From: Melghirimyces profundicolus
Lineage (GTDB): Bacteria; Bacillota; Bacilli; Thermoactinomycetales; DSM-45169
Direction of reading: 5' to 3'
Assembly: GCF_003054245.1 (NCBI RefSeq)
Contig: NZ_QBKR01000013.1
Span: 1 to 64,000 of the forward strand
Length of the DNA stretch: 64,000 nt
Of this stretch, positions 7,698 to 45,129 are shown piece after piece. The translations under genes and the position numbers were made by a program. The notes under the pieces are model-generated. The model searched no databases and was not told where the DNA came from. It was given only the letters and a program-made list of their open reading frames with translations. How positions within the stretch are numbered: position 1 is the stretch's first letter; every line of letters begins with the position of its first letter.

Positions 7698-7735
7698 GAT
7701 TCCGTGAAGGAGGTGTTGTCGAAAGGGAGAACTTC

Positions 7736-8205
7736 TGGAAGCGTTGTGATTGATGGTCAGGCTCAGAAGAAGGGAAGCGTTTACCCGAAACAGCGACTTT
7801 GCTGTTTTGCCCGGCGGAGAATCAGCAGCAAGGGCATTCAGGGGCAAAAGCTTCTCTGTGTTGCATCCGCAGGCGTTGGCCCCTGCCGCAGCAGGAAGAT
7901 TCGGCCACGGACAGAGCATACACCCTGCAGGACAGCATAGCGAGACCGGGAGAGAAGCGACCCCGGCGAGACTTGTGCTCTGTGAGTGCATAGCGAGACC
8001 GGGAGAGAAGCGACCCCGGCGAGACTTGTGCTCTGTGAGTGCATAGCGAGACCGGGGAGAGAAGCGACCCCGGCGAGACTTGTACTCTGTGAGTGCATAG
8101 CGAGACCGGGGAGAGAAGCGACCCCGGCGAGACTTGTACTCTGTGAGTGCAACCGGAGCGGCTTCGGGTAAATGCCGCCGCTCACTTTTTTTCACAATAC
8201 TTCCA
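7736..8205 (+). repeat. Long copy of a dispersed inverted-repeat-bounded element (copy 1)
   Basis: The element begins TGGAAGCGTTGTGATTGA and ends TTCACAATACTTCCA, so its ends are imperfect inverted repeats of about 14 bases. Inside are a left part with GTCAGGCTCAG, a middle part with GGGGCAAAAGCTTCTCTG, a tandem array of four 53/54-base units (7935-8148) and a right part with GGAGCGGC...GCCGCTCAC. A second long copy lies inverted at 36805-37228, and two internally deleted copies lie at 23249-23332 and 45066-45129. No transposase or convincing protein is encoded; short frames within it are produced by the repeats. No obvious target-site duplication was seen. It sits inside the opp operon between the ATPase and binding-protein genes. 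Confidence 0.88.
7935..8148 (+). repeat. Four contiguous 53/54-base tandem repeats
   Basis: Units start with GCATAGCGAGACCGGG at 7935, 7988, 8041 and 8095, giving periods of 53, 53 and 54 bases, and end with CTCTGTGAGT. Units differ only by one extra G and a GTGC/GTAC change. There is no spacer between units, so this is not a CRISPR array. The inverted long copy at 36.8 kb has three units of the same repeat. Confidence 0.92.
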
Positions 8206-8259
8206 GCGCGACTGATAAGCTGGAATCCATCTGAAAGGTTTAAGGGGGTCATATCAAAG

Positions 8260-23248: not shown

Positions 23249-23332
23249 CGGAAGCGTTGTGAAAAAGTGAGCGGCAGCATTTACCCAAAGCCGCTGTTTC
23301 TTCTGAGCCTGAAATAAATCACAACACTTTTA
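23249..23332 (-). repeat. Short internally deleted copy of the dispersed element (copy 2)
   Basis: The 84 bases begin CGGAAGCGTTGTGAAAAAG, carry GAGCGGCAGCATTTACCC with its partner GCCGCT, and end TCACAACACTTTTA. They correspond to the two ends of the long copies joined with the middle missing, and in opposite orientation to copy 1. The right end overlaps the stop codon of the RacA-like gene. Confidence 0.82.
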
Positions 23333-36804: not shown

Positions 36805-37228
36805 TGGAACTTTTGTGAAAAAGTGAGCGGCAGCATTTACCCAAAGCCGCTCCGGCTGCACTCACAGAGCACAAGTCTCGCCTGGGTCGCTTGCGCTCCC
36901 CGGTCTCGCTATGCACTCACAGAGCACAAGTCGTGCCTGGGGTCGCTTGCGCTCCCCGGTCTCGCTATGCACTCACAGAGCACAAGTCTCGCCTGGGTCG
37001 CTTGCGCTCCCCGGTCTCGCTATGCTGTCCTGCAGAGATGGTTGCACTGTCCGCTCCGAATCATCCTGCTGCGGGCAGGGGCAAAACGTCTTCGGATGCA
37101 ACACAGAGAAGCTTTTGCCCCTAAACGCCCTTGCTGGCTGATTCTCCGCTGGGCAGGACAGCAAAGTCGCTATTTTGGGCAAACGCTTCCCCTTTTCTCG
37201 AAACGAACATTCAATCACAACGCTTCTA
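36805..37228 (-). repeat. Second long copy of the dispersed element (copy 3, inverted)
   Basis: Bounded by TGGAACTTTTGTGA and TCACAACGCTTCTA, this 424-base copy is inverted relative to copy 1 and shares its whole structure: CAGCATTTACCCAAAGCCGC at the left, a tandem array of three 55/56-base units (about 36860-37025), then the middle part with GGGCAAAACGTCTTCGG and GGGCAAACGCTTCC. It fills the gap after the response regulator gene. Differences from copy 1 are scattered, so the copies are not recent duplicates. Confidence 0.88.
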
Positions 37229-41179: not shown

Positions 41180-41432
41180 ACAAAAAGAGATGTACTTCCG
41201 GATGATGGAGGAGATCCAGGCGGTCGACTTTGTGTTGGTGGAGTTGAACCTGTATTTGGACACCCACCCCGATGACCAACAGGCGGTTCAGCAGTACAAC
41301 GAGTACGTGCAACGGAGTGCGGCACTCAAAAACCGCTTCCAGTCCATGTTCGGTCCGCTCTACGGTTTTGGGAACAGTTACTCCGCCAGTCCGTTTTCAT
41401 GGAAGGAAGCCCCGTGGCCATGGCAAGTGTAA
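41151..41432 (+). CDS. cotJB: Spore coat protein CotJB
   Basis: A 93-residue helical coat protein. It contains MMEEIQAVDFVLVELNLYLD and QQYNEYVQRS, as in the CotJB family. GTG 41151 is preferred because GGGAGGAGG (41134-41142) lies eight bases before it; the frame would also allow GTG 41142, within the ribosome site itself. It overlaps cotJA by 29 bases. Confidence 0.9.
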   Translation: MAGRTPITDEQKEMYFRMMEEIQAVDFVLVELNLYLDTHPDDQQAVQQYNEYVQRSAALKNRFQSMFGPLYGFGNSYSASPFSWKEAPWPWQV

Positions 41433-41454
41433 CCGGGTACAGGAGGTTTTGAAT

Positions 41455-45065: not shown

Positions 45066-45129
45066 AGAAGCGTTGTGATTGATTGTCAGGCTCAGTAGAA
45101 GCGCCGCTCACTTTTTCACAACGCTTCCA
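45066..45129 (+). repeat. Shortest deleted copy of the dispersed element (copy 4)
   Basis: AGAAGCGTTGTGATTGAT and CACTTTTTCACAACGCTTCCA form the ends of a 64-base copy in the same orientation as copy 1. The TCAGGCTCAG left part and GCCGCTCAC right part of the long elements are present, with everything between deleted. Confidence 0.85.

Follow-up and report, generated by a model that had tools for sequence, protein, structure and literature searches.

BOX elements of Streptococcus pneumoniae and S. suis (boxA-boxB(n)-boxC) occur in many copies, each with two end modules around a variable tandem middle. Their mobilization in trans by an insertion sequence (IS) has been proposed, and S. suis combines one boxB with more than one type of outer module (PMC3049150). 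MITEs generally, such as RUP, Correia/NEMIS, and Nezha, are short and protein-less and have inverted ends, a target duplication, and an IS with matching ends. Within the IS1182 family, ISPse1 has 16-bp ends and a 4-bp duplication (PMC3281130), and the target varies among members, being GGCC for ISPsy36 (PMC8027508). A literature search found no report on repeats in Thermoactinomycetaceae or Kroppenstedtia. We present here four repeats from Melghirimyces profundicolus that are best explained, as a whole, as members of a MITE family with a modular core, mobilized by an IS1182-type transposase, a reading to which we assign a probability of about 0.9.

The window, meaning the whole stretch of DNA analyzed, comprises 64,000 nt of contig NZ_QBKR01000013.1 (C13) of the M. 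profundicolus genome GCF_003054245.1 (G000). A preliminary description had reported four copies in both orientations with inverted ends. A profile search of C13 located exactly these four within the window, and the end 13-mer GGAAGCGTTGTGA, allowing up to 2 mismatches, gave 8 matches there versus 1.8 expected and a maximum of 6 among 100 shuffles. The boundaries given earlier need correction, as they included the flanking 4-mer; the mobile unit begins at AAGCGTTGTGA, and the preceding CTGG or CTAG is the target. The features are as follows.

7739 to 8202, plus strand: long copy, L-M-B4-R, 464 bp, from the profile search
7735 to 7738, no strand: left target 4-mer of the long copy, CTGG, also present at the empty site in Melghirimyces thermohalophilus
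8203 to 8206, no strand: right flanking 4-mer of the long copy, CCAG
7739 to 7784, plus strand: left end module L of the long copy, variant CAGGCTCAGAAGAAGG, first bases AAGCGTTGTGATT
7795 to 7904, plus strand: core module M of the long copy, common to six genera of Thermoactinomycetaceae
7935 to 8150, plus strand: four B units of the long copy in tandem, 53 to 54 bp each
8153 to 8202, plus strand: right end module R of the long copy, last bases TTTTTTTCACAATACTT
23252 to 23329, minus strand: short copy, L-R, 78 bp, flanks TCGG and TTAG
36808 to 37225, minus strand: second long copy, L-M-B3-R, 418 bp, with the other L variant, TGTTCGTTTCGAGAAAAGG, flanks CTGG and CTAA
45068 to 45126, plus strand: shortest copy, L-R, 59 bp, flanks ACAG and CCAG
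41431 to 41441, no strand: site without the element, filled in two Kroppenstedtia genomes by a 131-bp MITE with TTAG on both sides

The short copies at 23252 to 23329 and 45068 to 45126 are, as had been proposed, the two end modules joined with the middle absent. The tandem array of the long form had gone unmentioned.

Beyond the window, the end 12-mer GAAGCGTTGTGA was counted with at most 1 mismatch across the 3.77 Mb of G000, with the reversed sequence as control, giving 313 matches (165 + 148) versus 6 (3 + 3). Modules were surveyed in 819,464 bp of this genome (contigs C1, C2, part of C3, and C13), where 59 module clusters cover 11.5 kb, or ~1.4% of the DNA; extrapolation to the whole genome suggests about 270 copies. 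Elements follow the general plan L-M-B(0 to 7)-R, in which M is optional and the tandem unit B measures 53 to 54 bp, and they range in size from ~52 to 630 bp. The survey counted LMR 8 times, LMBR, LMBBR, and LR 6 times each, and LBR 4 times, with LMB7R the largest form and many copies lacking both M and B. The L module exists as two sequence variants. The L and R end modules are unlike each other, the MITE ends being GTGAAAAAGT and GTGATT; in copies inspected in G009, of the Kroppenstedtia group, the element proper runs from AAGCGTTGTGA to TCACAACGCTT. The copies are numerous and dispersed, have terminal inverted repeats, and lack a transposase gene, in agreement with the earlier proposal of a non-autonomous element that encodes no protein. 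Plasmid and phage records were searched as well and held no copy of the element. At the contig ends of G000 (C1, C3, C4, C12, C15, C19, C27, C33, C37, and C40), several contigs begin or stop within long copies; the repeats are therefore a likely cause of breaks in this assembly and probably set a limit to it.

The four bases beyond each end form a target of the type YTAR, mostly CTAG. Duplication was assessed by comparing flanking 4-mers with a shuffled pairing (20,000 shuffles). Copies with identical flanks numbered 14 of 62 in G000, where shuffled pairing gives 3.4, and 20 of 49 in G009, where it gives 8.2; 0 of 20,000 shuffles reached these numbers in either genome. Among non-palindromic flanks, direct duplicates numbered 13 in G000 and 9 in G009 versus 5 and 1 inverted ones, which identifies the flanks as a duplicated target rather than an extension of the inverted repeat; the direct repeats include TTAG/TTAG, CTAA/CTAA, and CAAG/CAAG. 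Successive copies in G009 share a CTAG between them. The preliminary description had seen no target duplication, which is accurate for the four window copies, whose unlike flanking 4-mers left it unable to see one, and does not extend to the family, which duplicates its target. In G000, the two flanking 4-mers of most copies now differ. Empty sites lie within open frames in 7 of 27 cases (G000) and 5 of 44 (G009), compared with about 0.6 for random points. CTAG sites generally are as rare in open frames (11 of 61 and 10 of 94, with the flanks of the elements themselves counted in), and the intergenic bias may thus need no cause beyond target choice.

Exact 12-mer counts were 174 in G000, 156 in G009, 67 in Kroppenstedtia guangzhouensis (G004, of the same genus as G009), and 63 in Paludifilum halophilum (G007), with only 8 in the same-genus M. 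thermohalophilus (G001). The element is a non-autonomous transposon of Thermoactinomycetaceae. The window copy at 7739 to 8202 is missing in M. thermohalophilus, where 40 bp separate the flanking matches, compared with 522 bp in the window, and the site itself reads CTGG. The reverse case is found at 41431 to 41441, which is empty in the window and carries the 131-bp copy in G004 and G009. That copy, shared by two Kroppenstedtia-group genomes (L123:87-217 and L201:8018-8148), lies directly 5' of a putative ribosome-binding site, TTAGGAGGT, whose gene has a conserved counterpart in the window near 41441. A 20-kb M. thermohalophilus stretch (L200), the match to the surroundings of the window copies at 36808 and 45068, yielded no copy of the element. 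At the counterpart of 45068, this stretch has a single B unit without AAGCGTTGTGA ends (L200:10885-10932), enclosed by the short inverted repeat GTATACCCCC/GGGGGTAC. The preliminary description had held that a lack of further copies in the genome, together with identical placement in relatives, would speak against mobility; the searches found further copies in G000 and in relatives, and placement differs. The best full-length copy pairs are 97.8% (G000) and 99.2% (G009) identical and no pair is fully identical, which gives no evidence of recent movement.

Of the PF01609 transposases in five genomes, two adjoin ends of this type, one in G004 and one in G007. In K. guangzhouensis, the parent IS is 1,454 bp long (L146, positions 1054 to 2507) with CTAG on both sides; it starts with AAGCGTTGTGAAATACGG and its other end is AATTGTGAAAAAGTCATTCA, whose inner 12 bases equal one MITE end in G009. 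Stop codons and frame changes break up its transposase and keep the scores of the pieces under the curated cut-off for the full-length protein; the pieces match NF033551 (IS1182) with values of 4.7e-34, 7.5e-13, and 6.1e-18, the best model for every piece. In P. halophilum (L155), a frameshifted relative is 71% identical to the G004 transposase over the N-terminal part and has both end types beside CTAG, GTGAAAAAGTC at the 5' end and GTGATCATC at the 3' end of the second fragment; its gene start adjoins CTAG-AAGCGTTGTGAAAAAGTC, and the end of the second fragment is CTAG-AAGCGTTGTGATCATC. The MITEs agree with the parent IS in both of its unlike ends and in the CTAG duplication. The transposase with matching ends that the preliminary description had proposed to look for is present as broken copies in G004 and G007, and none was found in G000, where the PF01609 transposases lack matching ends and only distant IS1182 genes without such ends occur (contig gaps could hide a parent). 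Intact IS1182 relatives in the order (G015 and G011), also considered as parents, have other ends. The MITE-like family suggested earlier is supported on four counts: the copy number, the 4-bp duplications, sites that are empty in relatives, and an element with matching ends that carries a transposase.

IS5-group enzymes also favor YTAR targets. Movement by a transposase outside IS1182, for example one of the IS5 group, could draw on this shared 4-bp target and on the IS5-family models that rank second for the same protein pieces; we consider it highly improbable, since the sole transposase genes found between these ends match IS1182 best in every piece in two genera, and the PF01609 matches in G000 do not have these ends. 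No intact parent IS was found among 42 genomes of the order, so movement in trans by an IS1182-group transposase is something we infer from the ends and the target.

The core modules bear on whether the element is instead a structured RNA, the alternative that the preliminary description had offered. Such an RNA, regulatory or small, would be maintained for its fold, with dispersal secondary. The long form folds better than shuffles, with z values of -3.4 and -3.6. M, found in G000, G001, G004, G006, G007, and G009, shows conservation across six genera, and in some of its pairs both partners have changed. Among 128 distinct B units, the B box reads CGAG/CGAG in 100, CGTG/CACG in 11, and CGCG/CGCG in 3; because the copies are related, this alternation is a lead and not proof of selection. 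These observations could fit an RNA, but the two strands of the long form fold equally well, which is the behavior of a quasi-palindromic MITE, and the M consensus folds as well on the opposite strand (z values of -2.6 and -3.7) with no strand preference. A consensus fold was sought for 125 B units and none was found, Rfam models gave no match for the element, placement differs between sister species, and many copies have neither M nor B. A dedicated RNA function is therefore unsupported, and we judge this explanation very unlikely, if marginally less so than a different transposase group.

B is more widespread than M and includes a few genomes from other families of the order. It occurs within AAGCGTTGTGA-ended elements, within elements with GGCGTGTCTG-like ends, and at places with neither (G001 and G002). 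One reading of this range is that B moves or amplifies on its own and enters several MITE families as an independent unit, which would be compatible with the MITE reading. The B units showed neither a target duplication nor an end structure, however, and recombination between related elements or descent from a common element explains the range equally well (compare the S. suis BOX, PMC3049150), so we regard a separate B unit as unlikely. Similarly doubtful is a broader idea, that B, with its alternating box, is an exchangeable, structure-conserving tandem cassette spread across the order among transposon families with different ends, where it would parasitize MITEs or confer on them a common trait, for instance RNA stability. 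Kroppenstedtia and Paludifilum also have another interspersed family, ~163 to 290 bp in size and with ends near GGCGTGTCTGATAAATC beside CTAG or TTAG (L119:3814-3976, L123:915-1077, L201:8846-9008, L214:3969-4177, and others). Some of its members carry a B unit, and its target duplication was not significant in this small sample.

For the family in the window, a MITE mobilized by an IS1182-type enzyme remains the reading we prefer. The transposase would have recognized the terminal AAGCGTTGTGA repeats, and insertion would have been into a YTAR target, best CTAG, with the 4 bp duplicated as seen at the flanks. The unlike L and R ends enclose an optional M and between zero and seven B units in tandem. 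This array probably changes length through slippage or unequal recombination, and the short forms presumably arise by internal deletion. The transposase may later have been lost; with the parent IS broken in relatives and not found in G000, the family is probably dormant in the window's genome. Its targets are rare and mostly intergenic, and copies co-transcribed with a neighboring gene would form long hairpins, with a possible effect on attenuation or on the stability of the mRNA.

The parent's transposase family and a 4-bp duplication like that of ISPse1 are shared with IS1182-family ISs, from which the MITEs here differ in having no transposase. Compared with MITEs generally, the present family has a tandem-array core, internal modularity, and a wide range of sizes. 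By analogy it appears to work like BOX, a likeness of architecture for which homology is not claimed. Unlike BOX, which belongs to an unrelated host order and has ends only somewhat similar to ISSpn2, it has an extra core module M, a demonstrable 4-bp YTAR duplication, and an IS1182 parent. It offers a clear case for the origin of BOX-like modular repeats, as parent IS, unlike ends, target, and empty sites are all readable here and only partly so for pneumococcal BOX. With a B unit shared between MITE families, the exchange of modules among them becomes testable.
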